Below, in pieces: positions 2,140 through 61,057 of a DNA stretch of 64,000 nucleotides (within the stretch, counting starts at the first letter, position 1; each line of letters begins with the position of its first letter). The notes under the pieces are model-generated. The model saw nothing but the letters and a program-made list of their open reading frames with translations. It did not search any database and was not told the DNA's origin. The stretch lies in the NCBI GenBank assembly GCA_007922195.1, contig ML681964.1, positions 8,182,213 through 8,246,212 on the forward strand. The letters run 5' to 3'. The position numbers were made by a program, and so were the translations under genes. The stretch is from Podocnemis expansa. Its lineage: Eukaryota > Chordata > Testudines > Podocnemididae.

Positions 2140-2362
2140 TTCTTTCTTACTTCCAGCCACTCTCCATTTTGTCTGTATAGTTTATTTAGATTCTTTCCTG
2201 TACACACTAGCCCTTGTCTTAATGACTTCATTAGGACTTCATTCATCTGATAAAGTGGGTTAGAGTCCACAGAAGCTTATGCCCAAAGAGATCCTTTAGG
2301 TTTTAAAGTGCCACAGGATTCTCATTGTTTTTGCTGTACACAGACTAACATGAATATCTTTC
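2140..2362 (+). mobile_element. Penelope-like element 3' tail (orphan)
   Basis: This matches the 3' end of the PLE at 17060-17215: a degraded CATCTGATAAAGTGGG, then AGAAGCTTATGCCCAAAG, GTGCCACAGGATTCTCA and ACACAGACTAACA. No coding part remains. The hammerhead-like core is broken (CTGATAA, and GAAA is shifted to AGAA). It lies directly after the old CR1. Confidence 0.75.
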
Positions 2363-5300
2363 TGGAAATTTTTGTTAGGACTATTTGCCTGCTTAATGTT
2401 AAGCATCTGGGTAACTATGGAACCAGCATCTTGGGTTGTAAACTACATGGCCCAGAGTCTATCTCTGTATTTCTACAGTACTGGGCACAATAGGTTCCTG
2501 ACCTTGCTTGGAGCTTCTAAGCACTACTGTAATAAAACCAATGAATTATATAGATAATGAAAGCTTCTTTATGATTTATATCCTGGCAATGTCAGGTTAA
2601 ATCAACTTTGCATTAACTGCTGTGTATATCTTTGATGAGAAATTGCCAGATTATTTAAAACTGATTCTGATCCTGCAGATGTTGAATGATCATTGTAAGT
2701 GATAAGTATTGTCACCTACTGGGGGATTCAGGCCAGGTAACATCATTCATTTGACTAAATAATATTCTTGATAAATAGTCCTGATTCCACTATATACCTT
2801 TTATTATTGCTTTTCATTTGCTGGTTTGCACAGATGGCTGTTGAACACTTGTATGAGAGGACAGAAAAACATCCATTTTAAGTTATTGGGATGCAGTCCA
2901 TACAGTAAATGCTTGGTTAGAGTTACATTTTTTTCCTCCATGAATCATTAAATAGTTTAATAATCTAATGATTTCTCAATAGAATGATAAGTTCCCCCCT
3001 AAGTTTGATATACAGCTCTGTACAATCCATTAACATAAATTGACTTTCAATAAACCTAAGCAGTTGAGTCCCTATGGGGACTGCAGAAGCAGAATATTTT
3101 CTGTTGTAACTTTGTGCCACACAGTCAGATAATCTACTTTGATTGCAAGTATTACTCACTCTATTTGCATTTAGTGGTATGTCATTTGCAAATCAAGCCC
3201 GCTGTGGTCATGGAGTTTTCTGTTCTGATATTGTTATTGAATTTCCTTGTACTAGTTCCGTTTTCTGGTTTATTTCTGGCATATTTTTATTGATTATGCA
3301 AACTTAGTTCCAGCCAGAAAATTCAGCGCTACCCAGCAGTGCTCAGACTGATTCCTAGAGAAGGCTTGCAGTGTCTGATGAGAAAGGAAGTGAAGCAAAA
3401 TAAACCGCATGCATGGGTACTCTACATATACTATAAATGGAATGAGGGGTGTATACAACACTGTGTCTATATATTTATTTCTCTCATTATTTTATTAATA
3501 CACGCTAACATTAATTCAGAATTCAATCTCCGTGGCTTCTGTTTGGATAATTTTCTGCTTTTATCCTAAACGGAAAATATTTATGCTGTGGATAATGCCA
3601 TAATAGGCATTCAGATACCCCGGTGATGGGCACAGTGTAAGATCCTAGGCAGATTGTGAGATATGTATAATTGCTTATATACAGAACAAAATACATTCTG
3701 AGATACTCATGTGACACATAAACGTTCCCACTGGGTGATGTTCACCAGAATGAGATGCAAATAAAAAAAGGTTAATAAAGTGGGCTCAGGAAAGACTTAG
3801 TTCCATCAAAGTAATGAGTTGGAGTGGAGCAGAAAGCACTTCAAGGTGATGTGACTTAATCTGAGACATCCGTTCTCTTAAGCATGTATCAGAGTGTATT
3901 CATTTACTGGTTTAAAGAACATGTTGAAGCAGAGGTTCTGAAGGTCTGCCTAAAGCAGCAAAATCATTGCCATTCTGTTCTTATAAAAATCATATTTGGA
4001 AACAATGAGTTGTAACGATATTCATGATCATTAATATGTATAATAATTACAGTTTTGATGCAATCTTTAAATACCTGACATGGAAAGTATTTGCTAAATA
4101 GTATCTGATGTGGATGCACAAAAGACTCATGGTTTAATTGTCCAGCATGAAATAAGCTTTGCTGTCTTTTAAGAACTAGAAACCACAGTACTAAAACAGT
4201 CCCACCTGAAGAACTAAGTGTCCTCAAGACCAGCAATTAATTTGTCCATAGCATAACACTTACAAACAAGTACCCAAATATTTCCTTAAAACACTTAAGG
4301 GAGGGATCTCAAATAATTTGCATCTGCTTTAGTCCTAAGGAGAAATTCTTTCCTAGAATTGGCTCCTTTGAGAACTCCTTTCCTAGAATGGGCTCATCCT
4401 GAACAAAGGAATCATTTATTTGTAATTAATTTGATTTTAAATATGTCAACTCTAAAAAAGAACAGTGACCCAGATTCTCAGCCATGCCAAATATTTGTTG
4501 CATGCTGCTGGTGGAGAGCTGTTTATTTTCTAGTACTTTTGTCCCATACAGTTAGAGCATGCTTAGGGCTCCTCTAAAATATGTTGTCTGTCTATGTGCC
4601 TTAAGGCATGGATGTGAGCCAGAGGTAGTGAGCTGCAGCAACATTTCAACCAGATGTCCCATGCCTGTGGCTATGAGTGGAGTTGTAGAGAAGGCTGTAA
4701 TGTCAGCTAAGCACTCATGCTTGAAAAGGAATTCTGACCTCCACAGAGTTGTTGGCCACAGTCTACCGCAAAGGAGCCAACAGGTATAGAGGAAAATCAC
4801 AACTTTGTGCAAGACCAGAGAAGATGGTGAAGGGATGTAAGAAAATGGATTGTTCTCTCAGTCACAGAAATTAGCAACTGAGAAATAGAAATGACTTTCT
4901 GTTCACATCCAGGCTTCTTTATTGATTTTTCTTTTTTTAATGTGATTTTTTTTATATATGAATGTGCTGTGTATCTCTTATCAGCTGGATGCAGCTTTGG
5001 TTGCTTTGGCACTTTATGATGTTCTTGACATCATTCATAGAGGTGTTGAGTTAAAGCTAAACAGTTTTCTTCACCTAAATAAAAATGTGACAATCTTAGA
5101 GCTGAATTTAAGACCTAGTATCACATCTTCAGAAGTATTTTGGAACTCTTCTTTTAACAAGTGACTAAGGTGAGCTCATATCCAATGGTTACTATTAATA
5201 TAGAAGTAAATAGTCCACAGGTAAATGGGTTCTTTCTAACTGCTATCAGACATGTAGAAGCTGATAGCATATATGAAAAGGCCAGATTCATTGATTTTGG

Positions 5301-6141
5301 TGCAGGAGAATGTAAACACTCTCTCCTTGTGGCAGTTATTCTTTCTGCACCTGTGAAACAGAGGGCAAGTTGAATTATCCATTATAGGAGGCTTTTCACC
5401 TTCCTCTATTGCATCTGGTCTGAATCATCAGTGAAGACAGTGCACTGGACTTAATGGACACAGGTCTAACCAGTTCTCAACATTATGCTGTTGCGTTGAA
5501 CTTGCTGCTGGGAAAGTTGCAGTTGTTTGAGCATATGGCTGGAGTTCATTGCTCCTCTGAGAAGAGACTGCTGAAATATATTCTGAATTAGCACATTTCC
5601 TGATTGGCCTGGCCTTGCTACTTGTGTAGGAGATTGTGTAGGGCTGCTACTGATCTGGTGTAGGGGAATTTCTGACCATTATCCACAACTGCAACTTTCC
5701 ACCTTTGGGAGTTCTCCTGGGGCCCTCTTCTAAGGCACACACATTTTCCTTCTTCAGCTTACCATGCTCCTATTATCTCCTCCTGACAACAACTCTGAAT
5801 GGAGGCAGCATCTCACACCCACTGCTGATAGCAGTTGAGAGAGAGGTGGTCTGTTTGCTCCTTTTCTATACTCTTCATGAACTTTTACATTCCACAAAAC
5901 ACACGACCTAGAATATGTGCTTTTTGAAGTAATGGGGCTCAGTGCACAGTAAGGAGGAAGCCAACAGACCTGACCTGGTAAACACCAGCACCATGTCGTC
6001 TTTCAAAGGATTCAGGGTGAATGGGTGCAGTGTGTTTGTGGGAGAAGTGGAGAACAGGGGAGTTAACAGTATGTTGGCTTCCTGGTTGGGGAGAGAGCAA
6101 GGTCTCGGGGAGAGACCAATTAGAAATGTCTCAAGGAACAA
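2363..6141. other. AT-rich stretch without recognised genes
   Basis: I see no coding signal, RNA gene or classified repeat here. Reading frames are short (90 codons or fewer) and have no recognisable motif. A modestly GC-richer patch at 4560-4815 has overlapping frames on both strands, but I recognise nothing in it. Confidence 0.5.
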
Positions 6142-6289
6142 AAAAAACGAGAGTCCTCTGGTACCTTAAAGACTAACAAATGTCTTTGGGCATAAGCTTT
6201 CATGGGTTCCCACCCACTTAACCACCCATGAAAGCTTATGCCCAAAGACATTTGTTAGTCTTTAAGGTGACATGGGACTCTCGTTTTTT
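6142..6289. repeat. Palindrome of two inverted PLE tails
   Basis: The left arm 6142-6206 is the reverse complement of the right arm 6224-6289, apart from a few mismatches and a small gap, with a spacer of about 17 bases. Each arm carries the PLE tail words CATGAAAGCTTATGCCCAAA, TTTGTTAGTCTTTAAGGT and GGGACTCTCGTTTTTT. The CTGATGA part of the ribozyme core is absent from both arms. The structure would fold into a nearly perfect hairpin. Confidence 0.85.
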
Positions 6290-9070
6290 CTCTACGCTGA
6301 TTGACACAGGAACCCTTCTGGGACTTCTCAAGGAATAGCTTCTATAGGAAGATGATAATAGCTTTTAGGCTTGTGACTGAAGGAGGAGGAAACATAAGAA
6401 GGAAGAAAAGAACAGTAAACCAGCTAGGTGTGTCCTTCTTTAATAAAACTTTTCCAGTTCAACTGATTTGCCCCAGCTCAGAATAACTATGTAACTGCTA
6501 CTACAAACCTGAGGCTACAGGAGCTTCTTTCCCTGGCTTTTCCAAAGGTTGATGAATTTTTGTCCACATAACAGCATAAATCTGCCAAAGCTCTCTCTTT
6601 TGCGGGAAGAAAGTCATGTCTACTCCCTAATGAGCTTGATGAACACTGTTCGTTGAAAAATTTTCATTATTTGCTTTTTGGCTTGAAATTAGGTTACTGA
6701 CCTGCACAAAAACAGGGATTAGATACTTGAAGAATTAGGAAGTAGTCTAATTTACTTTTAATGAGCTAATGAATCTTGATTGTGCTTTGGATAGGTTGTT
6801 GATTATTATTATTTTTTTTTTGGAAAAACATATACAATAATGACAATTTAAGAATTTACTCTTTAATTTTTACTATATGGCCACATCTTTCTCTAAAAGA
6901 TAGCAAGTAGTATAAAGAAATCTTGTCAACTCTTCTACAGAACTGTAGTATCTACAACAGTGAATAGACATCGATGTGCAAATTAAACAAATTAGTCATG
7001 TGTTAAAAAAGGCAATCAATAAACCTGGGAAATAACATGCCAGCATAAATTGTGGCATATAAAATTAAAAAAAAATGTTATTGTACACATGATAAATATG
7101 TTTCTAAATTATATTGTGCATTACAATGTATTGGGCAGTGAGGGTATTTTATTTAAATTTAGGGTCACTTTTATTTCTCTGCGCATGTGTTTGTATGACT
7201 TCCAATGACTGCCTGTTCTTTAGAAAATGAAATAACAAAAATCACTTCCTTCCCAGTCTGTAGGAGAAATAGCTTACTATGTATAGGTTTTTGCTTGGTT
7301 CATTGTATTAGTTTGTTCTTTTAGTTATGTTTCCATATGATTTTTTTGGGTGTGTCAAAGTGTAGAGTGATTGTTGTCTAAGAAATCAAAACTGTATTTA
7401 AATATGGGATCATTATTAGGCATTGCAGGAATGAATTCCATGGTCTAGGTTAGCTCTTCAATTGCAGCTAAGAAAGTGGTGTTTTGTATGTTTGTTTTTA
7501 TCTTGGAGTGACTCATGCCCATGTGCTATCCTGAAGTTAAAAAAAAAAAAATACAGTAAAGACAAGGCACTTTAGTTTTACCTGTGCTGACTTCACCTGG
7601 TTATCTCCAGGTAAAACTTGAGCACCCTTTCATCACTGTGGTTTTTCTCCTTTTCACCTTAGCTCATGCCCCAAGGAAAAAGAAAACCTTTTGGCAATGA
7701 AGAAAATGCCTTAGGAAAAGGAAGTTAGATGCTGAGTGGCAGTTTGTGAGGCCTCTAATGTCAAGTGCTGATAATTTATATAATGTCAGCAAGATGATTG
7801 CATGTTCTAAAGTGAGTGATAGATTCTCCTCTTCTGAAGAGGTGTTGGCAATCTCTCTGGCACCTCAAGTTGCTTGTATTCTCTTTTACCATCCATATAA
7901 ACAAAGTGATGATGGGCCTTCTAATTTGTCAAGTTTAGCCAGGCTGCAGGAGGACTAGCTTTGTACGGGACAGCCAGAGGGCAAACTGCAAGCAAAAAGA
8001 ATCAGAGTTGAAGGACTGTACAGTTAAAAACAATCCCACTCACTCTACTTTTGATTTACTTCAGCTTGGTATGGAAACTTCATCTGTACTTTTGAATTGC
8101 CAGTGATGCTAAGTCATTTTTTCTTATAGTTAGAGTTAATTTTGTACTCGATTGATTTCTCTGAATCATTACCCTTCACTGATAGTTGCCATTGCCACAT
8201 TTGTGTTCATGTTAATTATAGGATACATCAAGAGATTTACTTCTGTCTCAATTCCTGCTGACGGTCACATTTCACCATGTAAATAGAACAATTAAAAATT
8301 CACAGAGAGGCATAACTGAATAATGTACATGTAGCAATGGTTTACACAACTAAAAGTGTTATGTTGCCTAGAGCGTAAATGTCTTCTATCTTGCCTCTAA
8401 AATAGTCTTGTAGGTTAAGTATTTAGTATAGTATTATTTATCTGTTTTCACGATGTGACTCTGCTAATCTCTTACTCTATGCTAGCCACTCTGCTTTTAT
8501 AAGACTTAATTTTGCTCTTGGGTGAGTTGATGTGAAATCCGCTTAGCATGTCAGCTGCCATATAATTGCCTGACTATTAACTCAAGGTCCATCAAGGACC
8601 AGAACAGGTTTCAGTTGGAGGTGAGGAATACAAAATTTACCTGTGCTAACAGGAAGGGAGTTTAGATGGCATTGCTGTCACTGGATCCAAACTTTCTTAC
8701 AGTTAAATGATCCCCAAAGGATCTCAGAGATTGTTCCTGACCTAAATGTTATACTGCTTAGATTGTCTTTGTAAATGCCAAATGTCATCTTGTGTCTGGA
8801 CGGATTTGATTTGTAATTAAAACTGGTTGGAAAATTCTGAAAATTTCAAAATCCAAGTGAAAACTGGAAAGACAGAAATGCTCAAAACTAGTTTCCATTT
8901 TTGAATGAAGTATATTAATATTTGTTGACCAGGTCAAAATACACACACACATAATTTGCTTATATTTTTCAACACTCAGGTTTATGATTTAAAAAAAAAA
9001 CTCGAATAACTTTGCATTATTATTTAGTTGTTTTGTGATAGTGTCGTGGACCTCATGAGTGAGGTGCCAC
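6290..9070. other. AT-rich stretch without recognised genes
   Basis: Nothing is recognisable as a gene or classified repeat. There are only short homopolymer runs (poly-T near 6810, poly-A near 7540 and 8990) and a small CA run near 8941. Confidence 0.5.
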
Positions 9071-14935: not shown

Positions 14936-15391
14936 TAAAAGCAACGAGAGTCCTATGGCACCTTCTAGACTAACAGATTTCTTCAAGCATAAGCTTTCAT
15001 GGGCTACAAGCCACTTTGTCAGATGCATGAAGTGGAAACTACAGTAGAGAGGTATATATACGTGTGCCAGAATGGAGGAGGACAAGTGTTAGCAAAGGCA
15101 GTTCAGAGAGCAGATGGGGCCCATTCACACCAGTAGATCAAAGGGAGAGAATGTGTGAACAGATGAATCACTTTTTGTAATGTACTAACCATTCAAAGTC
15201 TCTATTCAGACCCACCTTGATGGTGTCAAACTTGCAGATGAGCTCCAATTCTGCAGTTTCACACTGAGCTCTGTTTTTGAAGGTTTTTTTTTGTTTTGTT
15301 TTGTTTTTTTTTAAGTATGGCAACTTTCAAGTCTGCCACTGAGTGTCCATGGAGATTGAAGAGTTTTCCTAAGTGTTTTCCTATTCTACCC
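14936..15391 (-). repeat. Left inverted arm of the PLE
   Basis: This is the reverse complement of 16770-17196. Examples are AAGCATAAGCTTTCATGGGC at 14985-15004 and ATGGCAACTTTCAAGTCTGC at 15318-15337. The identity looks high. A T-rich insertion (TTTTGTTTTGTTTTG) near 15288-15312 interrupts it, opposite the short CAAAAAAG stretch in the right arm. Confidence 0.9.
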
Positions 15392-15393
15392 AA

Positions 15394-16114
15394 TATCCAT
15401 AAACCCGGGGATCCTGGATGCCCCATCATCCTAGGCATTGGCATTCTCACAGCAGGATTGTCTGGCTATGTGGATTCGCTCCTCAGGCCCTCTGCCACCA
15501 GCTCTCCCAATTATCTCTGTGACACAACTGACTTCCTGAAAAAACTACAATTATTTGGTAGTCTCCCAGAAAACACCATCCTAGCCACTATGGATGTAGA
15601 AGCCCTCTACACCAACATTCCTCACAAAGGTGGACTACAAGCCATTAGGAACAGTTTCCCAGATGATAACACAGCCCACCTTGTAACTGAAGTTTGTGAC
15701 TTTGTCCTGACCCACAACTACTTCAGATTTGGGGATGATCTATACCTCCAAATCAACAGCACAGCTATGGGCACCCACATAGCCCCACAGTACGCCAACA
15801 TCTTTATGGCTGACCTAGAACATTGCTTCCTTGCATCTCTTCCACTATTGCATCTCCTTTACCTGCACTACATTGATGACATTTTCATGATCTGGACCCA
15901 CAGGAAAGAGACCTTGAAAGAATTCCACCAAGACTTCAACAATTTTCACCCCACCATCAACCTCAGCCTGGACCAGTCCACACAAGAAATCCACTTCTTG
16001 GACACTACCGTACATATAAGAGATGGACACATTAACACTACCTTATACCACAAACCAACTGACTGCAATGCATACCTACATGCCTCCAGCTTCCACCCGG
16101 GACACATTACATGA
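15394..16114 (+). pseudogene. PLE reverse transcriptase domain (N-terminally truncated)
   Basis: This is the RT of a Penelope-like element, a class related to telomerase. The reading starts abruptly at PNIHKPGDPG after the inverted arm. It continues through LTAGLSGYVDSLLRP, motif A (TMDVEALYTNIP) and AMGTHIAPQYANIFMADLE, with the catalytic YIDDIFMIW near 15871. The thumb region HFLDTTVHI and LYHKPTD follows, and a TGA closes the frame at 16112-16114. Beyond the stop the same reading continues in pieces towards the endonuclease. The catalytic aspartates are present, but the N-terminal third is missing, so it cannot be a working protein. The apparent start inside the T-rich tract is not real. 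Confidence 0.92.
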
Positions 16115-16599: not shown

Positions 16600-16954
16600 C
16601 AGCCACACCATCAGGGGTTCATTCACCTGGACATCCACTAATGTGGTATAAGCTATCATGTGCCAACAGTGCCCCTCTGCCATGTATATTGGGCAAACTG
16701 GACTGTCCTTGCGTAAAAGGATAAATGGACACAAATCAGACATCAAAAATGGCAGCATCCATAAACCAATAGGAAAACACTTCAACCTCTATGGACACTC
16801 AGTGGCAGACTTGAAAATTGCCATACGTCAAAAAAGAAACTTCAAAAACAGAGTTCAGCGTGAAACTGCAGAGTTGGAGCTCATCTGCAGGTTTGACACC
16901 ATCAGGTTGGGTCTGAATAGAGACTTTGAATGGTTAGCACATTACAAAAAATGA
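16600..16954 (+). pseudogene. PLE GIY-YIG endonuclease domain
   Basis: This is the C-terminal endonuclease of the PLE, which nicks target DNA. It shows IRGSFTW, then a broken VV(stop)AIMCQQCP with TAA at 16649-16651 where the first tyrosine-bearing motif should be. Next come MYIGQTGLSLRKRINGHKSD, IHKPIGKHFNLYGHS and a C-terminal RFDTIRLGLNRDFEWL, ending at 16954. Cysteines before YIG (CQQC) match the linker typical of this family. It belongs with the RT at 15394; the region between them (16115-16600) is coding remnant with several stops. The last third is duplicated in inverted form in the left arm. Confidence 0.9.
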
Positions 16955-17220
16955 TTCATCTGTTCACACATTCTCTCCCTTTGATCTACTGGTGTGAATG
17001 GGCCCCATCTGCTCTCTGAACTGCCTTTGCTAACACTTGCCCTCCTCCATTCTGGCACGTGTATATTTACCTCTTTACTGTAGTTTCCACTTCATGCATC
17101 TGACAAAGTGGGTTGTATCGCATGAAAGCTTATGCTCAAAGAAATCTGTTAGTCTAGAAGGTGCCACAGGACTCTCACTGCTTTTGCTATACACAGACTA
17201 ACACGGCTACTCCTCTGGAA

Positions 17221-18208
17221 AATGGTGTGTTTTTTGTTTTTACCACTTGATTTCTAAATAAAGTTAAATTGAAATCATATAGAATAGTCAAAATGCACCT
17301 CTGATAATATCAGGACACTGTTTTCATTTGTGATTGATTGAATTATTGTTGAATAGGATTTTGTATTGTTGGAAATTGCTTGGTTAAATGAGGACATGCA
17401 GTTGGAAAATTGGAGAATTTTTGGATGAGAACATGTGAGTGAATGGGATTAGATGTTAGGGGACTATTTCTATTTATAGTGGTCTAATTGTTATAGATGG
17501 CTCTCATAGACAGCTGTAGAGATCCTTATTGAACCCAGATGCAACTGGTTTAATGGGCAATTTTAAGATGATGAAGGGGGTTAAATAATACATCCAATGC
17601 TTCAAGACATAGAGAACCCATGGGTATTTGTGAAGGCTTTGGTCCCTGTTGTGAGCAATAAGAGATTAAAGAGCTTAAATTTGATAAAGCATCTTGCATT
17701 GAGTCTTAAAGATGAATTGCAATGTGATGTCATTGGCTGATAAGATTATCAATCTCCATAATGTGACTACCAAATAAGGTTCTTGATTTTTGCATGCACA
17801 GCCTAGACCAGACCAAATTATGTCATAAGATCAGTGAACTTCAGGAAAGTTAATTCTGCTCATGCTAATGGCATTTTGCATTTGACATAGGGAATAACTA
17901 AATAGAAAAGTGGGTTTTTTAAATGAGTTAGCTTTGCATAGGTTGAGAGTAAAAAAGGGCAGACTGCTCTGCTACAGTTTAATATTTTCGGAGTGAGATA
18001 ATGAAAAACATATTAAACCCCGTATTGGGATTCCTATTCTGGGTGACTTGGAATATCCATGTAGTCATTACTCTTATGATGTCCATGAGAGTCCAAAACA
18101 ATTTTTGGCTATCACATCAAGCTGGATTTATTTCAAAACTGTCTCATCTTGGATTCAAGATTGAGGTGATGAATATATCTTGGTCACTGTTCATGGATTC
18201 ATGATTAT
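17221..18208. other. AT-rich stretch without recognised features
   Basis: No gene, RNA or classified repeat is visible to me. Confidence 0.5.
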
Positions 18209-21480: not shown

Positions 21481-22311
21481 CCCTCTCCTATACAAGACAA
21501 TCCTCCACTCTCTCTAACTTTGGGAGGTAGATCACCCTTCGTTTACAGACAGCTCCCCAACCTTAAGCAAATACTCACCAGCAGCTACACACTCTGCAAC
21601 AGAAACACTAAATCACACCTATCCCTTCAACAAAGCCTGTTGCCAACTCTGCTTGCATATCTACTCAAGCGACACCATCATAGGACCTATTCAAGTCAGC
21701 CGCTCCATCAGGGGCTCATTCACCTGCCCATCTTCCCCTGTGAGCCATTGTGAGCCAGCAATGCCATGTGCTTTGTACATTGGCCAAACTGGACTGTCTG
21801 TGCAAAAGAATAAATGGGCACAATTTATTGACATCAAGGATGGTAACATTCTAAAACCAACAGGGGAACACTTCAGCCTCCCCAGACATTCTGTAAAAGA
21901 CATGACCATAATAGTGCTTCAGTAGAAAAACTTTAAAAACAGGGTCCAATACGAAATGGTGGAACTGGAATCCATATACAAACAATATCAAACTAGGTTT
22001 GAATAGGGACCTAGAATGGCTAACTTGTTACCAAAAGTGACTCACATTTTTGCAGCCTCATCTATTGTTCCACACTGTTGGAATCAAAACAACTTGCTTG
22101 ATTTGCTGAAAAAGTCTGAACTGACCTTGTGATGTAGACTCTGCATTTATATATTCATGTATATACTGTAATTTCCATTTCATGCATCTGAGAAAGTGGG
22201 ATTTTCTCCCATGAAAGCATGTGATAGATAAATTTGTTAGTCTTTAAAAGTGCCACAGGACTCCCTGTTTGTTTTGCTGAAGTAGACTAACCCAGCTACC
22301 CCTCTAAAACT
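21480..22311 (+). mobile_element. Second Penelope-like element, 3' part
   Basis: This contains a GIY-YIG endonuclease remnant and a complete 3' tail ending in AGACTAACCCAGCTACC near 22300. It is more diverged than the copy at 14936 and lacks a left inverted arm. Its tail has CTGAGAA instead of CTGATGA, so the ribozyme core is broken. Confidence 0.88.
21650..22038 (+). pseudogene. PLE GIY-YIG endonuclease remnant
   Basis: The reading SIRGSFTC, ALYIGQTGLSVQKNKWAQF and DIKDGNILKPTGEHFSLPRHS parallels the endonuclease at 16600-16954. A TAG near 21923 interrupts it. After that the matching C-terminal region (a degraded IKLGLNRDLEWL) runs to about 22035. The YIG motif is kept. It is a dead copy of the same protein family. 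Confidence 0.88.
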
Positions 22312-24449: not shown

Positions 24450-24759
24450 GTACTTCACATTGGTAGGACTTCTTGTACTAGGAATTTTAAAACACTTGAA
24501 TGAGTATTTTTGCAAAAGGTTGGATGGCCAGTGTAGAGGGTGCAACATCATGAGCACATGGAAGTGGGATCTTCTCCCACGAAAGCTCATGCAAAAAATA
24601 AAGTGCCACACAACTGCTTGTTGGTTTTTTACTAGACTAGACTAACACGGCTATGCCTTTTGAAATTGACAGTTATCCTGGCCATCCAACCTTTCACAAA
24701 CAAATATACTCAAGTGTTTTAAAATTCCTCATAAAAGAAGCCCTACCAATGTGAAGAAC
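24450..24759. repeat. Inverted duplication (about 83-base arms) around a PLE tail
   Basis: The left arm 24450-24533 and right arm 24677-24759 are reverse complements with small indels. Shared words include TTCACATTGGTAGG, GGAATTTTAAAACACTTGA and GGTTGGATGGCCAG. Between them lies a PLE tail (24540-24660). The arms do not match the other PLE tails in this window. Confidence 0.85.
24540..24660 (+). mobile_element. Penelope-like element 3' tail (orphan)
   Basis: AAGTGGGATCTTCTCCCACG, then AAAGCTCATGC, AAGTGCCACACAACTG and AGACTAACACGGCTATGCC are PLE tail words. The stem II and GAAA parts of the hammerhead-like core are intact, but CTGATGA is missing. Confidence 0.8.
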
Positions 24760-26192: not shown

Positions 26193-26393
26193 AGGGGTAG
26201 CCATGTTAGTCTAGTTCAGCAAAACAAACAAGGAGTCCTGTGGTACTTTTAAAGACTAAAAAATGTATTTATTGCATGAGCTTTCGTGGGAGAATATCCC
26301 ACTTTGTCAGACACTTTGAAGATGGGGGAATTTTATCCCACAAAAGCTCATGCAATAAATTTGTCAGTCTTAAAGTGCCACGGGACTCCTTGG
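26193..26393. repeat. Palindrome of two inverted PLE tails
   Basis: The left part is a minus-strand PLE tail (complement of the AGACTAACATGGCTACCCC end at 26193-26215, then GGAGTCCTGTGG). The right part from about 26331 is a plus-strand tail (TTTATCCCACAAAAGCTCAT, then GTGCCACGGGACTCCTTG). Arms 26229-26295 and 26331-26393 pair with each other. The left arm is longer and includes a degraded core reading CTGACAA on the minus strand. Confidence 0.85.
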
Positions 26394-28734
26394 TGAGATT
26401 CTGATGCCATAAAGTCAGCAAAGGGTCTCTTATTCCCCTCCCAGCTGTGCTCCTGTTACAAGGGAATGAGTATGACCTGGATGTCCTACACTATTTTGAA
26501 CCCCGGCTAATACTTCTGGGTACTCGTGCTTGAATATCTGGCATGAAGTAGGGTGGCCCTGAAGCTGCTCTAATATGGCAAGGGGCACCAGTTCACAAAG
26601 GTAGCAGCAGGCTCCATGGAGTGCAAAAATAACTTTTGAATCCAGCTTGTGCTCTTTGCAGATCAGTTCATAATCTGGCTGTGTACACTTTGAAAGTGAG
26701 AGAGCTAAAATAATGGGATTAGAATTAGATGGTTTGAAGATGGTTTAGAAGAGGGGATTCAGTAAATCGTATTTGTAAGGATTTGATGTCCGGTTTTGAA
26801 GACATGAGTCCGTGTTTATATTCTATATAAAATTCATAAACTGACAATGTACTCAGGCATAAAAACATGGGTCAAAGATAAGTGATCACACACCTATATG
26901 AAAAACAGAAACATGGGGACAAATGTATTCCTTTTTATGGCCACATCTGTTATTTTCACTAGCTTATTCTGTCTGCTGAATTTTCATTAAACCTTGTTTA
27001 AGAATGTAGGAGATAGCTGATGGGTATTAGGCATCAAATGAGTCTGTCAAAGAGCTGACAGTTGATAAGGTGTTTCAACCAGTGGCATAGCAAATCTCTG
27101 TACACAAACTTCACAATCAATATTATTATTAATCTTACAGTTTCTGCTAGTTTAAAATGAACATCCTTCCAGGGACAACATTCAGCCTAGTGGCATTCAG
27201 TAAAGTAGCAAACACTGCTTTACATTTGGAGACGGGATTTAAATTAAATGTGGGAAGATTTAAACTGAATTAGTAGATTTTAAATGCAGCAACCATATAC
27301 CTGAGTCTCAGTAATGCATGGTGATGTGTATATGAGTCATTCTTTCTTGCTGGGATTCTTGCCTCAGACAGAGGAATAGGGCAGAGCAGATAAGCATCAA
27401 CAGCAGCAAAGTCAAAGTCCTAGCTCCAACAATTTCTGAGGAGGAGGAAAATAAAACAAAGAAAGTGAACTTAGGCCACTTCTCTGTTCGATATAACAGT
27501 TGTTAAGAGGGCAAATTCACTCAGTTGATCCCAGACATTTAGGTTTTACCTTTATTTTTTAGGTGGACATATAATAAAAAAAGCATGCAAATAAAAGAAT
27601 AGTTGTTGACCTGACATGAAAAGAAGGCATGTACCATTCCAGAATGATTTGTGTTATTAAGCAGAGTTTGAGGGTAGAAGTCTGCTGCTTTGCAATGTGT
27701 CATTTTAAAGGAATAGAGCAGAAATTTAAGATTTTTTTGTTAACAGTGTTCTTCCCCATTGTGACACACTGCACTCGCCCATGATCAATCTTATAGTGTA
27801 ACTGTGTATTGGTTAGTGCAAATATCATGTGAAATGTTTTTGGAATGCTCATGATGTACTAAATGCTAGTGTTTTATGTTTGTTGCAATGTCATGTGAAT
27901 GACTGTGGGGCCTCAGTATGGGATAACGCCAAAGATGTGTCTCAAGGCTTAAAAGAAATACAAGGAAGGATCTCTGAACAGCGGGTCAGTTTATACCTCA
28001 TTAAGGCTTGTCTGAAACAAGCCCAGCTTGGCATTTCAGGAGCAAAGTTCTAGCCTATATGTCAGCAAAGGACCTCACTCACTCAGGACAGGGTGGGAAC
28101 CATACATATACAGACATTGTTGGTTACCTAATCCTGAAGGCGGGAGGGGGGCAAAACTGCAGAGTGGAGAAGGAACATTTTTGAAACGGGAAATATTTTG
28201 CTATTCTTTCTGTGTTCCTTCCACCTACATGTACAAACACCACCAGTGAAGTGCTGATCCAAGGGGAGAGCCTGGCTGGAAGGGAATCCAGCCAGCCTGT
28301 GGTGAGAATCACCTGAGTTTGTAAGGATGATGAAAGTGTTAAGCTTAGTTTAGAGTGTGTTTGGCTTTTTTAAAAATTTTGACTAGACTCGCTTTTCTTC
28401 TGACTTATCATGACTTAAACAAATTTATTAAATTATAGAAGGGTTTATCTTGCAGTGCATTTGGTTTAAGCTGTCCCAGAGACTCCATTTAGCGTGACAA
28501 AGCTGGTGTATATCTATTTCTTTGTTAAAGCAATACGCATATGAGCTTACTGTCCAGTGGGCAGCATTGAAGATAGCAGTATGGAGGGTCTTAGAGTTGC
28601 ATCGGAGACTGGGGCTGTTCGCTGAGGTCATACCATTGCATGTTATGATAGGCGGCTAGCTAGAGGCACTCATTCTGTTTGAGATGCAGCTTGCTTGATG
28701 TGGCTGTAGGAGAGCTGCCCAAGAGTGAGATTGA
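26394..28734. other. Stretch without recognised genes; possible unclassified repeat near 27900-28330
   Basis: I identify no coding region. The block 27900-28330 is less AT-rich than its surroundings and looks like an interspersed repeat or LTR remnant, but I cannot classify it. The rest is AT-rich and featureless. Confidence 0.4.
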
Positions 28735-42200: not shown

Positions 42201-44300
42201 TTGCTTTACAGCAAACTGTAGCAACCTGCAGCTCCTATAGGCAAGAGCCTGTCACCTGGACCAGCACTACCATCCAGTACCAACAGTGGTAGGTGGGAAG
42301 GGTAAAAACAAAGAAGCAACTTTCTCTTCAGCACAGGCTGAAGACAAAATGGGAGTGAAAAGGAGAAGCAGAGGAGCATGGGGAACGTCCCCCTAGTTGA
42401 GATTTTATCCACCCTAGCCATCTAAGGTTGACTTTGCTACTCTTGGCCTTGTCAAAGCTGCACCCTCCTAAATGAGCTGAGTGCTTGCTCAAATTTGTTC
42501 ATTTGTAGTAAATATTATATATATTAGAGTGAATCCAAACAAGATTTTCTCTCTTTCATGTGCACATGCACACAAACACCCAAAATCTTGTTTGGATTGA
42601 CTCCAATGGAATATTTCATAGCAAGACAGAGACTTTTTTGAAAAAAGAAATGTACCAAGGATATAGGAGAGTTCAAATAGAACCCATGTTTCAATCTCAG
42701 CTACAGAATTTGCTCTTGGCAAATGTAAGAAGTAAGGTTCATTTTAGGCATTCAACCAGTGCTTTTTTTGTGAAATGGTTACAATGAAACTGTTGCTCCA
42801 GATTTATAGTAAGGCATATGTACTTAACAAAAGAGAATAAATAATGATAATATCAGTTTTAACTCTTGTTTATCAATGAACTTGTTTTGATAGAACAAAA
42901 ATTATCCTGGCTCATTATTGCCTAAACTTGATATTCAGTTCTTGCATTTATGGAACTGGAAAGTTTTTATAGCTCTATTTATGCTTCAGATTTATTTGCA
43001 CTTTCACATATGTCATACGGTTATGAAACTAGGCTTATTGTTCAAAAAATAACTTATTTTGGTTATTCTTTATGTATTTTAATAAATGGAGAGCATTTAT
43101 ATTTCACTATACAGTGGATTTAATTCTGATCTCTTTTAGTGGTTAATCCAAAATAACTTTATTGAGTTTGGTAACTTAGCTAATTTTGTCTACAAAAGAT
43201 CTTTCAGACAGAATTAAAATTTAATTTCTTGTATGTTGTTGTAATCAACGTTCATCATTATAGAACCTACTATATATGAAGTACTTTGATATATGAAGAT
43301 TGGATCAAACTTGCCCTTAAAGTCAATGGTAATTGAAGGAAAATGAAAATAAGACATGGCTTAGTTAATTTCAATGTGTAGGCAACTACTTTTAGTAAAT
43401 AATTATTCAGTGAAATCCTTTGGGGGAGTGTGTTCAAGGAAGGGTGAGATAGATAAGAAAAGAATTCTAACACAAAAAGGAGCAACAATTTAAAAACAAG
43501 ATATATTTTTCTTTGGTGGGATGCTATAAACTTTTGGATAAAATGATTATGCTGGATTTCTGTCTCCTATGACATTTTCTGTGCAGCCTTTCCATTTAGT
43601 GATTCCGTTTTCTATTACTCAAAGCTTAATTGGTAAATCAGTGTAGTACACGCATGAGCTAGAAGTCACTTTAACATTGCAGTGAATTCTGCATAAGATT
43701 TGGAAAAAGAATTCTCTTAAAACTGACTTTTCTCGCAAAATATGAGAAACAAGACTTTATGCAAATGAAGTTCAGAGGAGATGCGAAGGTGACAAGGCAG
43801 AGAGTTGTAGGATACTGTTATTTATCACCCAACAACTAGTGTGATACTCCATGTCATGGGTTGGAATGGCGGCCAAGATCCAGGATCCATGTAAATGAGG
43901 ACTCTGGTATTTCACCGGAGTTCTACCTTCAACTCCACCTTTGATTTTTGTTTGTCCAAAGTCTAAAGTAGTTGAATACGAACCCCCATACTCCCCCACA
44001 CCTTCTGTCATGGTGCTCCACCCCCCAGCCGTTCTGCAGTTTAGCTTTGCTATAGAACTAAAGTGGTTCAAAGAACTTAATACAGATCCTTGGAACTGAA
44101 ATGAGATCCACCATGAGCTGGTCAAAAGTTTTCAGGCAACTAGTTTATTTGTCCAAGAACTCAGACTCTGGGGTCAGCCAAAAATATTTGCAAATTTGAC
44201 AGGACTTTGGTGATGAACAGTTTTGAACAAAGCTGCCCCCCCCCAAAAAAAAAAGACAGGGAGGGTTACGTGTCATTCACAAAACAATTCTTTCCTTATA
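39242..44300. other. AT-rich stretch without recognised genes
   Basis: No frame resembles a known protein and I see no classified transposon. A perfect-looking 22-base inverted repeat at 42527-42603 is listed separately. The rest is featureless to me. Confidence 0.5.
42527..42603. repeat. 22-base inverted repeat with 33-base loop
   Basis: GAGTGAATCCAAACAAGATT(TT) at 42527-42548 is complementary to 42582-42603 with one mismatch. It does not match any transposon terminus I recognise. Confidence 0.85.
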
Positions 44301-46255: not shown

Positions 46256-47225
46256 ATTTACTGTAGGATGTGTCATTGGCTGCCAAATGCTTACAGACTT
46301 CCCTCTATAGATTAAGGAACCAGTTCCTCAGCAGGGATGCAAAACTAAGGTCATTGGGGTCATTAAATAACCCATGGAAATTTTGCAGCTGTAGAGGTGC
46401 TATTAACATAAGTTTTCTCTACAGACAAAATTTGATGATAATTATGTTCAACCACCATAAATTCCAGCTTTGGTTTCAGTGGAAGATATTCATCCCTCTT
46501 TGCTCTAAATAGTTGTGTAATGGTGCTATGCAGTATCACTTGGTGCCCTGTTCATCCCAAAGGTGGTTGGACTTCACTGGATGTGATGATTCAATAGTGA
46601 ATCCAATTTCTGAAGCCTTCTGAGGTGTAGGGTATAAATCTAAGTTATTGGCATTTCTACATACCAACACATTTTTTTTTTTTTTTGCACAGTGTTGTGG
46701 TGCTCCCAAGTATAAATGTACAAGGTATGAATTTAGGGGTCAAATTCAGAGCTAATGTTAATAAGTCAGTGTAAGTTAGTTTAAAATAGCTGAAAGAGTA
46801 GACAGTACTTTATTATATCCCATCCTTCCATCTATTCTGTATGTAACTTACAGAGGTGTTATTACTTACTGCTGTGTAACTTGTCATATGTTTTATTGTC
46901 ACCTGAATTTTGCCTTCAATAAGACACGACACTTCATCAGTTGAATTTGTGCACGTATTTTCCAAGGAATTGAAGAGAGAGTTTGTAGTCTCCTCATTTT
47001 CTTTGCTGGCATTTTGTTGCATTTTTGGGCCCCAATCTAATTCTCATTTGTACCAACAGAAAACGTCTCATTAACTTCAGTGGGCATTGGCTCTGGTTCA
47101 TTCTTGTAACACTTTCCAGTTTAGAATTACAGATGTAGAAATTAAATTTTATATTGGGAAATGGAGTTTACTATCAGCTTTGAATTCTAGACCTTGGTAT
47201 GATAGATAAATGTAAATTAATCCAT
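46256..47225. other. AT-rich stretch without recognised features
   Basis: There is a T run near 46673-46686. Otherwise nothing is recognised. Confidence 0.5.
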
Positions 47226-50586: not shown

Positions 50587-50695
50587 TAATCATCTTCAAG
50601 CATCTGATGAAGTGGGATTCTCTCCCACAAAAGCTTGTGTGATAAATAAATTGGTTAGTCTTAAAAAGTGCCACCAGAATCCTTTGTTGTTTCAA
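50587..50695 (+). mobile_element. Penelope-like element 3' tail with hammerhead-like core
   Basis: CATCTTCAAGCATCTGATGA is followed by AGTGGGATTCTCTCCCAC, AAAAGCTTGTGTGATAAATA and GTGCCACCAGAATCC. CTGATGA (50604-50610) and a 5-bp stem (GTGGG/CCCAC) are intact. The G of the GAAA motif is A at 50629. There is no coding part. Confidence 0.85.
50600..50640 (+). ncRNA. Hammerhead ribozyme-like motif (minimal type I, probably inactive here)
   Basis: GCAT, CTGATGA, stem GTGGG-loop-CCCAC, AAAA (GAAA expected), GCTT, GTGT. The last four bases can pair with GCAT, using two G-U pairs. AGCT would be a self-complementary stem III that only forms between two molecules. The G12 change should abolish cleavage. 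Confidence 0.6.
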
Positions 50696-51640: not shown

Positions 51641-52189
51641 TTTCTTAATCAGGGTGTGAGCACAAGGAAACCTGAAAAGGCTCAGCAGTGGCCACAGCTA
51701 CCAAATTGTGCTTCTGTCTCACAAGTCCAAGTGAAAGATGACCAATGCATGTCGACTGTGTGCATGCAGATTTGTACCTAAGGACTTCTACAGATCACTG
51801 CTCCTGTCCCCAGGGATTAACGTAAGGGCAGAATGCACCAGAACGCAGTTTTGGGGCCTCCTAAAAATAGAACACCACCCTGGAATGCAGTGTTCCAGGC
51901 CCCCTAAAAATTGATACAGCCACCAGAATGCAGAGTTCCACTGTGTTCACCTTAAGGCCTGTTCCACCTTAAGCCCAGCCAGCAGAGAGCTGTGGCAGGC
52001 TGGGAGTTTGTAAATCTCCCGCTGACAGGGTGGGAGCAGCTTTTGGCTGGGAAGCAGCTCCCAGCCGGTCAGCCAGTGTGCAAACAGCCTTGGCAGAGCC
52101 CTGCGGTAGGGTTGGGTGAAGGGCTCTGGGGGGGGGGGCTGGCCTCTGAAATGGGGGAACAAGGAATGCTGCGGGGGGTTGTGTGGGGC
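51641..52189. other. GC-richer stretch, unclassified
   Basis: Repeated phrases such as CAGAATGCACCAGAACGCAG and CCACCAGAATGCAGAGTTCC suggest degenerate repeats. The segment 51960-52180 is G-rich. I recognise no gene. Confidence 0.4.
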
Positions 52190-52520
52190 AGGCTGTGTGT
52201 GTGTGTGTGTGTGTAGCTGGAGGTGTGTCCCTGGGTGTGTGTGTGTGTAGCAGGGGGTGGGTGGGAGTGGATGCGTAGCTGGGGGTGTGTACATGGGTGT
52301 GTGTGTGTCGCAGGGGTTGCATGGGAGTGGATGTGTGGGTATGGCTGGAGGTGGCTGTGTGGGTGGGGGTGGGTTTGTGAGTGTATCTAAGGGTGGGTGT
52401 GTAAGTGGGAGTGTATGTATAGCTGGGGTGGGTGGGGGTGTGAGTGTAGCTGGGTGTGTGTGTTGGTGGGGGTAGCTGGGGGTCTGTACCTGGATGTGTG
52501 TAGCTGGGAGGTGGGTGGAG
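52190..52520. repeat. G/T-rich minisatellite
   Basis: Imperfect units of the form TGTGTAGCTGGGGGTGTGT, or close variants, recur with TG runs and GTGGGTGTG words. All G is on the plus strand. The long minus-strand frame here (His/Thr/Pro-rich) is an artefact of the repeat. Confidence 0.85.
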
Positions 52521-55774: not shown

Positions 55775-55975
55775 AAGACCAGCTTTGACTGTTCAGCAAA
55801 GCTAAAATCTACCTGACCCTATGACTTGCACTTCCCTGCATTTATTTTCCTCGCATTCTGTAAGTTCCTCATCTTCAAGCATCTGATGAAGTAGAATTTT
55901 CTCCAACGAAAGCTTACACAATAATAAATTGGTTAATCTTTAAAAGTGCTACAGGACCCCTTGTTTGTTATTTCT
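55775..55975 (+). mobile_element. Penelope-like element 3' tail with hammerhead-like core
   Basis: CTACCTGACCCTATGACTTG leads into TTCTGTAAGTTCCTCATCTT, then CAAGCATCTGATGAAGTAGA, CCAACGAAAGCTTACACA and GTGCTACAGGACCCCTTG. CTGATGA (55883-55889) and GAAA (55908-55911) are intact. Stem II is weakened and stem I is lost. Confidence 0.85.
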
Positions 55976-56454: not shown

Positions 56455-58375
56455 GCAGAAAGACCAGCAAATGTGGAAGGTGCCCAGTGTGGTTTAACAG
56501 AGAACTCTGCACTGAGCTAAAGCATAAAAAGAAAACTTACAGGAAGTGGAAGCTTGAACAGATGACTAAGGAGTTATATAGAGATATTGCTCAGGATTGC
56601 AAGGATAAAATCAGAAAGGCCACAGGACAATTAGAGTTGCGGCTAGCAAGGGATGTGAAGGATAACAGGAAGGGGTTCTACAAGTATGTCAATAACAAGA
56701 AGAGGATCAAGGATGGTGTAGGTCCCTTACTGAATGGGGCAGGTATCCTCGTGATGGAGGATGAGGAAAAAGCTGAAGTGCTCAATGCTTTTTTACTTCA
56801 GTTTTCACAGGCAGGGCCAACTCCCAGCCCACTATACTGGGTATGGCAGACTGGAGAGAAGAAAAGAGGCCCTTGGTGATGGAAGGTCAGGTTAGGGACT
56901 CCTTAAAGAAGCTGGATGTGCACAAGTCCATGGGGCTGGACAAACTGGACCCGAGGGTGCTGAAGGAGTTGGCCAAGGAGATAGCAGTACCAATGGCCAT
57001 TATCTTTGAAAACTCATGGTGAACGGGGGAGGTGCCGGAGGACTGGAAAAAAGCAAATATAGTACCTATCTTCAAGAAAGGCAAAAAGGAGGATCTGGGG
57101 ATTTACAGACCTGTCAACCTCACCTCAAACTCTGGAAAAATCATGGAACAGATTCTCAGAGAATCCATCCTGAAACACTTGGAGGAAAATAGAGAGATCA
57201 GGAACAGTCAGCATGGATTCACCAAGGGTAAATAGTGCCTGACCACCTTCTTTGCCTTCTATGATGAGACGACTGGATGTGTGGATGTGGGAAGAGCCAT
57301 TGACGTGATATACCTCAACTTTAGCAAGGCTTTTGATATGGTTTCCCACAGCATTCTCGTTGGCAAGTTAAGGAAGTATGGGTTGGATACGTGGACTGTA
57401 ATGTGGATAGAGAACTGGCTGGATCAATGGTTTCAGTGAATAGGAATCAATGGCTCCATGTTTAGTTGGCAACCGGTAATGAGTGGTGTGCCCCAGGGGT
57501 CGGTCCTGGGGCCAGTTCTGTTCAACATTTTCATTAATTATCTGGATTATGGGATAGATTGCACACTCAGTAAATTTGCAGATATCACCAAGCTGGGAGG
57601 ATCGGTAGACACGTTGGAGGGCAGGGACAGGATTCAGGGAGACCTAGACAAATTGGAGCAGTGGCCAATAGAAATCTCATGAGGTTCAATAAGGACAAGT
57701 GCAAAGTCATGCACTTAGGATGGAAAAACCCCATGTACTGCTACAGGCTGGGGAGCGATCAGCTAAGTAGCAGCAGTGTAGAAAAGGATCTGGGGGTCAT
57801 GGTGGATCGAAGCTGGATATGAGTCAACAATGTGCTCTTGCTGCCAGAAGGGCCGATGGCATACTGAGCTGCATCAGTAGAAGTGTTTGCCCGCAGGTGG
57901 AGGGATGTGATCGTTCCCCTCTATTTGGCACTGGTGAGGCTGCATCTGGAATACTGTGTCCAGTTTTGAGCTCCTCACTACAAAAAGGATGTGGACAAAT
58001 TAGAAAGAGTCCAGCGGAGGGCAATAAACATGATCAAGGGGCTGGAGCACAAGACCTATGAAGAAAGACTGAAGGATCTAGGATTATTTATCCTGCAGAA
58101 GAGAAAACTGAGGGGGGATTTGATAGCAATCTTCAGCTACTTGAAGGGATGCTCCAAGGAGCAGGGAGCTCGGCTCTTCTCAGTAGTAACAGAGGACAGA
58201 ACAAGGAGCAATGGTTTCAAGTTGCAGCTGAGGAAGCTCGAGGTTGGATATTAGGAAAAATTTTCTTACTAGGAGGGTGGTGAAGCATTGGAATGGGCTA
58301 TCAAGGGAAGTGGTGGAATCTCCATCTTTGGAGATATTTAAGGCTCAGTTAGAGAAAACCCTGGCTGGGATAATT
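56455..58375 (+). pseudogene. CR1 ORF2 reverse transcriptase, broken
   Basis: The linker reads RKWKLEQMTKELYRDIAQDC and RKGFYKYVNNKKRIKDGVGP, then shifts frame near 56810. The RT follows: MGLDKLDPRVLKELAKEI, a stop at 57020 (ENSW then TGA), [26 protein letters not shown] then TAG near 57234, and a YLNFSKAFD motif near 57311. Next are [20 protein letters not shown] and a mutated catalytic site reading FADITK instead of FADDTK. A further frameshift comes near 57665, and the C-terminal part ([20 protein letters not shown]) near 57995. The mutated catalytic Asp alone would inactivate it. Confidence 0.92.
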
Positions 58376-58457
58376 TAGTGAGAGTGGTCTTGCTATTTGT
58401 CGCAGGGGGGTTGGACTAGATGACCTCATGGGGTCCCTTCTAACCCTATGATTCTAA
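56455..58457 (+). mobile_element. CR1 LINE, 5'-truncated, nested in an older CR1
   Basis: The sequence begins in the endonuclease-RT linker (CPVWFNRELCTELKHKKKTY) and ends with the CR1 terminus GGTTGGACTAGATGACCTCA near 58409, then CTAACCCTATGATTCTA at 58441-58457. It is closely related to the copy at 1-1249 but more damaged. Confidence 0.93.
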
Positions 58458-60834: not shown

Positions 60835-61057
60835 CACTGATTTGCTGTAACAGTCTGACCTGATCCTGTGACTTACACATCACTACAGTTCTTCCCCCCT
60901 CACATTCTGTAAGTTCTCCATCTTCAAGCATCTGATGAAGTGAAATTTTCTCCCATGAAAGGTCAGACGATAAATAATTATTTTACTCTTTGAAAATACT
61001 ACAGGACTCCTTGTTTATTTTTTGCTGAACTAGACTGAGACAACTACTCCTTTGGAT
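60835..61057 (+). mobile_element. Penelope-like element 3' tail with hammerhead-like core
   Basis: CTGACCTGATCCTGTGACTT, ATTCTGTAAGTTCTCCATCT and TCAAGCATCTGATGAAGTGA are followed by TCTCCCATGAAAGG, CTACAGGACTCCTTG and the end word ACTAGACTGAGACAACTACTC. CTGATGA (60932-60938) and GAAA (60957-60960) are intact, but the sequence after GAAA no longer pairs as stem I. Confidence 0.85.

Follow-up and report, generated by a model that had tools for sequence, protein, structure and literature searches.

Minimal type I hammerhead ribozymes associated with Penelope-like elements (PLEs) were reportedly described by Cervera and De la Pena in 2014 and by Lunse et al. in 2017, and PLE hammerheads on their own are reported to be weak in vitro. 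That PLEs carry hammerheads is established in four papers (PMC6155905, PMC7229834, PMC6431247, PMC11167929), and one of them proposes that the hammerhead is an auxiliary means of preprocessing RNA templates (PMC6431247). For PAc, the Poseidon element of Anolis carolinensis, the published account states that cleavage of the RNA depends on addition of its protein, and that hammerhead mutants still insert in vitro (PMC11167929).

The turtle Podocnemis expansa carries the same known kind of motif in great abundance, and part of the copies are intact. The reading developed below, to which we would give a probability of roughly 0.8, is that repetitive tails in the window (the whole stretch of DNA that was analysed, 64 kb in length) may be the end segment of a turtle PLE with a decayed predicted hammerhead, that the sources of these tails would have been intact, that their insertion templates were mostly uncut, and that transcription of one subfamily, A, would start after a TATA box. 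No paper on a turtle Penelope hammerhead was found in the open-licence literature, which does not imply absence from print.

Penelope-like remnants and tails in the window

A PLE reverse transcriptase (RT) remnant is located at 15281..16114 on the plus strand (Pfam RVT_1, E 4e-9). Its homologs number 737 proteins at E<=1e-10, the best being an RT-domain protein of Chrysemys picta with 76% sequence identity. Among the best 120 of the 737, the source names are those of reverse-transcriptase-domain, uncharacterized or otherwise named proteins, the name Penelope being absent, and one RT homolog (P0102) bears both RT and GIY-YIG domains. A PLE GIY-YIG endonuclease (EN) remnant at 16652..16954 (plus strand) is recognized by its YIGQTG..LRKR motif, position and context, its match to Pfam PF01541 (E 0.0027) scoring 18.4 bits against a cut-off of 22.6. 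We take both remnants to be PLE-derived from their layout of RT and GIY-YIG and from their motifs. Directly 3′ of the endonuclease, at 17000..17228 (plus strand), lies a pLTR end of subfamily A that has TATATTTA and, at 17096, a tail that reads CTGACAA and keeps GAAAGCTTATGC; head-to-head to it, at 14937..15465 on the minus strand, is an inverted partner consisting of the EN C-terminus, a pLTR with TATATATA and a tail (CTGACAA; CATGAAAGCTTATGC). The inverted arms (14937-15293 and 16829-17185) are 94% identical over 357 nt, and the RT and GIY-YIG remnants lie between them. The tails had been predicted to be Penelope ends; tails of this kind do follow RT and GIY-YIG remnants, the RT has its nearest homologs among turtle proteins and, judged by this context, the tails represent the end segment of a Penelope-like retrotransposon of a turtle.

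A copy elsewhere in the genome (L159, 121-3473) has a 676-aa open RT-EN frame, within which the GIY-YIG match exceeds the Pfam cut-off, followed by a pLTR and tail. Its inverted arms are 99% identical over 1107 nt, with the same tail at both ends; we take it to be a young copy, though conversion between the arms could equally keep them alike. A12 replaces G12 in both arms, so at least one apparently recent source would have lacked G12. Genome-wide there are at least 149 PF01541 matches (150 of 5820 candidates were scored), several of them in close head-to-head pairs (e.g. C9:8005070-/8005740+ and C45:23914510-/23916323+), which suggests that the inverted layout may hold for longer PLE copies too. 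The partners in the window element and in L159 are inverted and 5′-truncated only; a direct pair of pLTRs was seen in neither.

The insert at 50587..50695 (plus strand) is an orphan tail of subfamily B, short and 5′-truncated, with a short-type 3′ end; upstream of ATCTTCAAGCATC is unrelated flank, and the insert ends near TTTGTTGTTT. It bears a hammerhead relic that reads, from 50600, GCAT CTGATGA A GTGGG ATTCTCT CCCAC AAAA GCTT GTGT. On the plus strand, its parts are the 5′ strand of stem I, GCAT (50600..50603); the core from C3 to A9, CTGATGA, with T at N7 (50604..50610); an extra A at 50611..50611 that separates A9 from stem II and is not in the consensus hammerhead; stem II, GTGGG-ATTCTCT-CCCAC (50612..50628); AAAA replacing GAAA (50629..50632), a loss of G12 that fits CpG decay of CACGAAA; AGCT, the self-complementary strand of stem III from A15.1 to U16.1 (50632..50635); and H17 (T) with the decayed 3′ strand of stem I, GTGT for ATGC (50636..50640). 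The CUGANGA core is thus present in this copy and GAAA is lost. Two further subfamily B tails with hammerhead relics, at 55879..55975 and 60928..61021 (both plus strand), have pLTR sequence running on upstream, share GCATCTGATGA and keep GAAA; their CTGATGA cores are at 55883-55889 and 60932-60938, respectively. Stem II, complete only at 50600 among these three tails, is broken at 55879 (GTAGA/CCAAC) and at 60928 (GTGAA/CCCAT); GAAA is followed by GCTTACAC at 55879 and by GGTCAGAC at 60928, where AGCT is damaged, and the pairing of GCAT with ATGC is absent from all three copies themselves. The tail layout first claimed for these three positions, GCAT-CTGATGA followed by RAAA and a GCTT-like box, is real at each of them, with stem II broken in two. 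It is common to nine other tails on both strands, some of them truncated, with differing lesions.

Tails were also located at 2243..2375 (plus strand, subfamily A; CTGATAA, GCTTATGC kept), at 6131..6300 (a head-to-head pair of subfamily A tails), and at 22184..22303 (plus strand; CTGAGAA), the last with a GIY-YIG-like remnant upstream in the frame 21518-21925, which has no Pfam match. The tail at 24560..24640 (plus strand) is subfamily C-like, with the loop ATCTTCT, and is truncated inside the core, GTGGG..CCCACGAAAGCTCATGC being kept and CTGA missing; on either side of it is an inverted repeat of 82 nt and 84% identity (24450-24531 and 24678-24759), which could be another element that received the tail. 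A head-to-head pair of subfamily B tails occupies 26193..26400, and its minus copy (26275) has lost G8 as its sole required core letter (CTGACAA). The tails with CTGACAA and CTGAGAA agree with the original prediction, as does the presence of GCTTATGC near 2275, 6234 and 17128 in diverged copies, displaced by no more than 4 nt from the predicted positions; CTGATAA tails were found too. It had also been claimed that each copy here is disabled, which holds in the window, where the full hammerhead arrangement is present on neither strand, but does not extend to the genome, intact cores being numerous outside. By itself, CTGATGA shows no enrichment in the window (12 observed, 12.4 expected), and a looser test (core, stem II and GAA) gives one match there, a non-tail sequence at 46940 (minus strand).

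Other repeats of the window include two copies of a LINE segment at 1-1194 and 57216-58409, 81-90% identical by piece, with a related piece near 49667; judged by a motif, these are presumably CR1-like. An AT-rich hairpin at 42518-42612 weakly resembles two microRNA families, on both strands, and is possibly, at a guess, a MITE. GT-rich degenerate repeats at 52169-52489 comprise seven 62-nt copies at irregular spacing.

Structure and decay of the hammerhead motif

As predicted from its letters, the motif is a PLE minimal type I hammerhead of the dimer type; it has one extra A before stem II. The full test consisted of CTGANGA, stem II, GAA, a self-complementary 4-mer, H and closure of stem I, an arrangement that appeared in 0 of 100,000 dinucleotide shuffles for each of two family units; the looser motif of core, stem II and GAA appeared 17 and 15 times per 100,000 shuffles of the two units. 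The full arrangement at the family level is not chance. Self-complementary AGCT is followed by T or C, giving U16.1 and H17 at the family level. In the 2.39-Gb genome (1487 contigs), CTGATGAAGTGGG...CCCACGAAAGCTTATGC, which comprises the intact core, stem II and the 3′ part (CTGATGA...GCTTATGC), has 297 exact copies, and GCATCTGANNAA...GAAAGCTTATGC, which carries the stem I pairing of GCAT with ATGC, has 3558 exact matches, some with broken cores; the reversed-pattern control was 0 in both cases. A minimal type I layout, a stem I of GCAT and ATGC, and a self-complementary AGCT, which confines stem III to pairs of copies, had all been proposed from the window; the shuffles, the intact-core copies and the stem I matches bear these proposals out, and intact cores at the family level, such as the 297 exact copies, lend support to the proposed descent from what would have been a ribozyme-bearing ancestor. 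No match to the hammerhead motif was found in viral contigs.

Subfamily C is distinguished by CTGAGGA and mostly C at H17. A 34-mer of this subfamily, spanning G5 to ATG with the C11.1-G12 CpG left open and with C3, U4 and outer stem I outside it, has 11,494 exact genome matches; at the 78 places listed with letters, all on one contig (C1), it reads CACGAAA in 62, CATGAAA in 9 and CACAAAA in 7. Subfamily C shows less CpG decay than A or B and so looks young. The differences among subfamilies fall on hammerhead-permitted sites, namely N7 (C, T or G), H17 (T or C), loop II and the sixth pair of stem II, which is U-G/C-G or A-U and differs in kind among them. The extra A after A9, a feature overlooked in the original prediction, is present in 60/60 subfamily A rows and 34/36 subfamily B rows.

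Stem II (GTGGG/CCCAC) folds in the units of all three subfamilies, and the minimum-energy structures of the A and B core units contain both stem I and stem II. The best fold of the A tail (81 nt) has GCAUCUGAC paired to downstream tail sequence and no stem I, and the C monomer prefers a competing hairpin in which UGAG is paired with CUCA. The modelled dimeric hammerhead has energies of -19.9, -19.7 and -19.7 kcal/mol for A, B and C, and the best duplex, at -31.6, -28.0 and -32.2 kcal/mol, is more stable; this is weak counter-evidence, because nearest-neighbour energies model a three-way junction poorly. An Rfam scan that had no positive control reported no hammerhead in the window, at gathering scores or at E<=5, and none in 11 loci with intact or near-intact cores or in L159. 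The covariance check is thus formally negative even for intact-core loci; it is not counted as a refutation, because the scan was uncontrolled and the motif has no loop on stem III, a feature that ordinary models look for.

Decay of the core was assessed in 60 subfamily A arms and 36 subfamily B arms, all reaching the core's 5′ edge. The letters from C3 to A6 are kept in 90-95% of A rows and 88-94% of B rows, and most remaining unit positions have the reference letter in 85-100% of rows; less conserved are G1 (78%), C2 (84%) and loop position 21 (65%) in A, and C2 (80%), A3 (66%) and C41 (61%) in B. CTGANGA and GAAA are jointly intact in 19/60 A arms and 8/36 B arms. The N7G8 step is TG in 24, CG in 15 and CA in 15 of the A arms, and TG in 15, CA in 11 and CG in 6 of the B arms; C11.1G12 is TG in 29, CA in 18 and CG in 9 of the former, and TG in 18, CA in 13 and CG in 3 of the latter. 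As reconstructed, the family's ancestral core was CTGACGA...CACGAAA, CpG decay of which would explain CTGATGA, CTGACAA, AAAA and ATGAAA. Changes of G8 to A and of G12 to A, two of the ten required core letters, make up 36/71 lesions in A and 26/50 in B, and at least one lesion of the CpG type is found in 31/41 broken A rows and 21/28 broken B rows. CpG decay as the cause of nearly all lesions was rejected: it accounts for about half in the sampled copies, the rest being other mutations. In the three tails at 50600, 55879 and 60928, A12 at 50600 is the only lesion clearly of the CpG kind; CTGAGAA, and the changes that these three tails have in stem II, stem I and AGCT, are mostly not. Since this is a single repeat family with decay after insertion, independent covariation is not expected from its copies.

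Ends and pairing of inserted copies

If the template were prepared by cleavage, inserts should begin at the cleavage site. To select subfamily A arms, we used an exact 28-mer located 3′ of the hammerhead, which has 3344 places in the genome; 100 of them were listed, all on contig C1, and 90 loci covering 96 of the 100 listed places yielded 96 distinct arms. Subfamily B arms were picked by a 29-mer (24,669 places), yielding 50 arms from 50 loci among 100 listed. In both subfamilies, selection relied solely on sequence 3′ of the cleavage site. The sample comes from a single contig of a single genome, and joins can shorten arms. The 5′ ends of the A arms lie upstream of the hammerhead in 18 cases (seven of them running through the whole reference), at its edge (-5 to +3) in 42, inside the core in 22, within 2 nt of the cleavage site in 5 and beyond it in 9. 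Those of the B arms lie upstream in 29 cases, at the edge in 7, inside in 7, at the site in 0 and beyond in 7, and one of 21 B partner arms, which are outside the 50, ends at the site. Arms that run through the cleavage site number 82/96 in A and 43/50 in B, together 125/146 (121 to 126 over three scorings), and no pile-up of copy ends within 2 nt of it was found in A (5/96; 3 and 3 of 96 under two other scorings) or in B (0/50). With 125 of 146 arms crossing the site and no more than 5 stopping there, the boundaries indicate that in the sampled arms of both subfamilies the inserted DNA was mostly copied from RNA uncut at the hammerhead site. The five A arms that end at the site are all in head-to-head pairs, and in at least two of them (L043 and L051) arm and partner have ATGC in common where they join; in our reading, microhomology can explain these ends.

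The 42 A arms that end at the edge (41 to 43 over three scorings) do so within 9 nt around the G of GCAT. The mode of this peak, ATGCATCTGA, with 15 arms, is the A of a CA step in the reference unit, where the peak lies approximately 32 bp downstream of TATATATA, a TATA box; in 11 long A copies this box is exact in five, one letter off in five and lost in one (L069). The peak comprises 10/32 unpaired arms and 32/64 paired arms; that it is a mere artefact of palindromic joining is disfavoured, as it is also found in the unpaired arms, though weaker. The A peak is probably a transcription start, which would place the hammerhead at the 5′ terminus of the RNA. It is not reproduced in subfamily B (7/50 at -5..+3), and the claim is limited to A because B is without both a good TATA box and a peak.

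An inverted partner lies upstream of 64/96 A arms by a loose test and 53/96 by a strict test. Long arms end near CTGGAAA and short arms near TTGTTTTT; the 53 strict rows consist of 43 long with short, 6 long with intermediate, 3 long-long and 1 short-intermediate. With a single threshold, the 45 distinct pairs (L019-L108) consist of 42 long-short, 2 long-long and 1 short-short, and 42/45 long-short was reached in none of 100,000 shuffles, suggesting that the two target strands make use of different RT start sites. This near-strict rule is an addition to the head-to-head structures known from rotifer PLEs. A flanking direct repeat of at least 6 bp (with slack of up to 4 nt) accompanies 9/45 distinct insertions; counted as script rows, the figure is 10/48, against a null mean of 0.575 and a maximum of 4 in 200 shuffles, an excess which indicates that some insertions have target-site duplications.

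Interpretation and comparison with described elements

In the preferred reading, the ancestral segment would consist of stem I (GCAU/AUGC), the core CUGANGA with its extra A, stem II (GUGGG/CCCAC), GAAA and a self-complementary AGCU for stem III, with predicted cleavage after H17 (U or C), and the full hammerhead would assemble only between two copies. Source elements would have had an intact core that inserted copies then lost, about half of the lesions being CpG decay, and in the sampled arms the inserted DNA was mostly made from RNA uncut at the hammerhead site. In subfamily A, the hammerhead would lie at the transcript's 5′ end, just past the TATA box. Short orphan inserts would be cDNA begun at an internal RT start and extended to the transcript 5′ end, and cDNA would often be made from both target strands, with the arms joined head-to-head. 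A more specific proposal, speculative and held with low confidence, is that the hammerhead at the very 5′ end of the transcript goes unused for template cutting and acts instead elsewhere in the life cycle, for example to remove a capped leader from RNAs uncommitted to insertion, and that insertion is a two-primer event that copies the leader twice, distal and proximal RT starts producing the long arm and the short arm.

It is possible, if on balance doubtful, that the stretch is conserved for another reason, such as a promoter and initiator, a start codon, or recognition by RT or another protein, and that the hammerhead is an inherited idle relic. The predominance of uncut templates, the adjacency of the TATA box and 5′ edge peak to the core in subfamily A, the loss of G12 from both arms of L159, and the insertion in vitro of Anolis PAc hammerhead mutants (PMC11167929) would all suit such a relic; the same source has PAc RNA cleaving once its protein is added, however, and in the turtle the subfamily differences sit at hammerhead-permitted sites and subfamily C retains G12 in 62/78 listed copies. 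It is very unlikely that production of the insertion template requires processing by hammerhead cleavage: such preprocessing has been proposed in general (PMC6431247), and 5/96 A arms and 1/21 B partner arms do end at the site, but 125/146 arms cross it, and the five A arms in question all belong to head-to-head pairs, with L043 and L051 explicable by ATGC microhomology. A chance resemblance to a hammerhead within a repeat family, with which the unremarkable frequency of CTGATGA alone and the silence of Rfam would be in keeping, is less credible still, given 0/100,000 shuffles for each unit and a motif class and position that match those of published PLE hammerheads. That the tails are microRNA-like hairpins may be dismissed, for the weak Rfam matches in its favour (MIR781, E 0.06, and MIR8675, E 0.1, at 6175-6255 and 26239-26381) score far under gathering (31.2 against 88 and 29.8 against 90.8) and sit on head-to-head inverted tails, which are long hairpins by themselves.

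If the tails are indeed decayed ends of a turtle PLE with a predicted hammerhead, one turtle genome holds, in its thousands of copies, a fossil record in which the 5′ end of an insert shows whether the RNA was cut, and the data bear on the in vivo role of PLE hammerheads. The near-strict rule of one long and one short arm and the counts of intact cores constrain models of PLE insertion; what a specialist would want to see repeated is the boundary record.

Relative to the consensus hammerhead core, the turtle motif has an additional A after A9, just ahead of stem II. A viroid hammerhead with an extra core nucleotide, that of chrysanthemum chlorotic mottle viroid with an extra A after A9, is said to have been described by De la Pena and Flores in 2001; it is like the turtle motif in this feature, the RNA itself being unrelated. 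With the PLE minimal type I hammerheads, as characterized in two papers (PMC6155905, PMC7229834), the turtle motif shares a minimal core without a looped helix III, a location in PLE terminal repeats and a dimer-type stem III; it differs from known PLE hammerheads in its turtle host, in its silence in Rfam and in source lineages that vary in N7 and H17. The Penelope element of Adineta vaga has TATA and Inr in its pLTR, head-to-head inverted repeats whose joins are palindromic, target-site duplications and an optional 31-bp 3′ tail on one inverted pLTR (PMC3846280). The turtle element has these features in common, whereas many turtle inserts are tiny and 42/45 pairs have one long and one short arm. 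The element PAc (PMC11167929) is likewise a reptile PLE with a hammerhead at the pLTR-ORF junction, an internal RT start downstream of the hammerhead, and cutting and extension of both target strands. Uncut RNA is the dominant substrate of PAc in vitro, whereas in the turtle the use of uncut RNA is suggested by genomic copies of two subfamilies; the turtle sequence, likened to PAc by description, differs further in the TATA-positioned start that one of its subfamilies appears to have.
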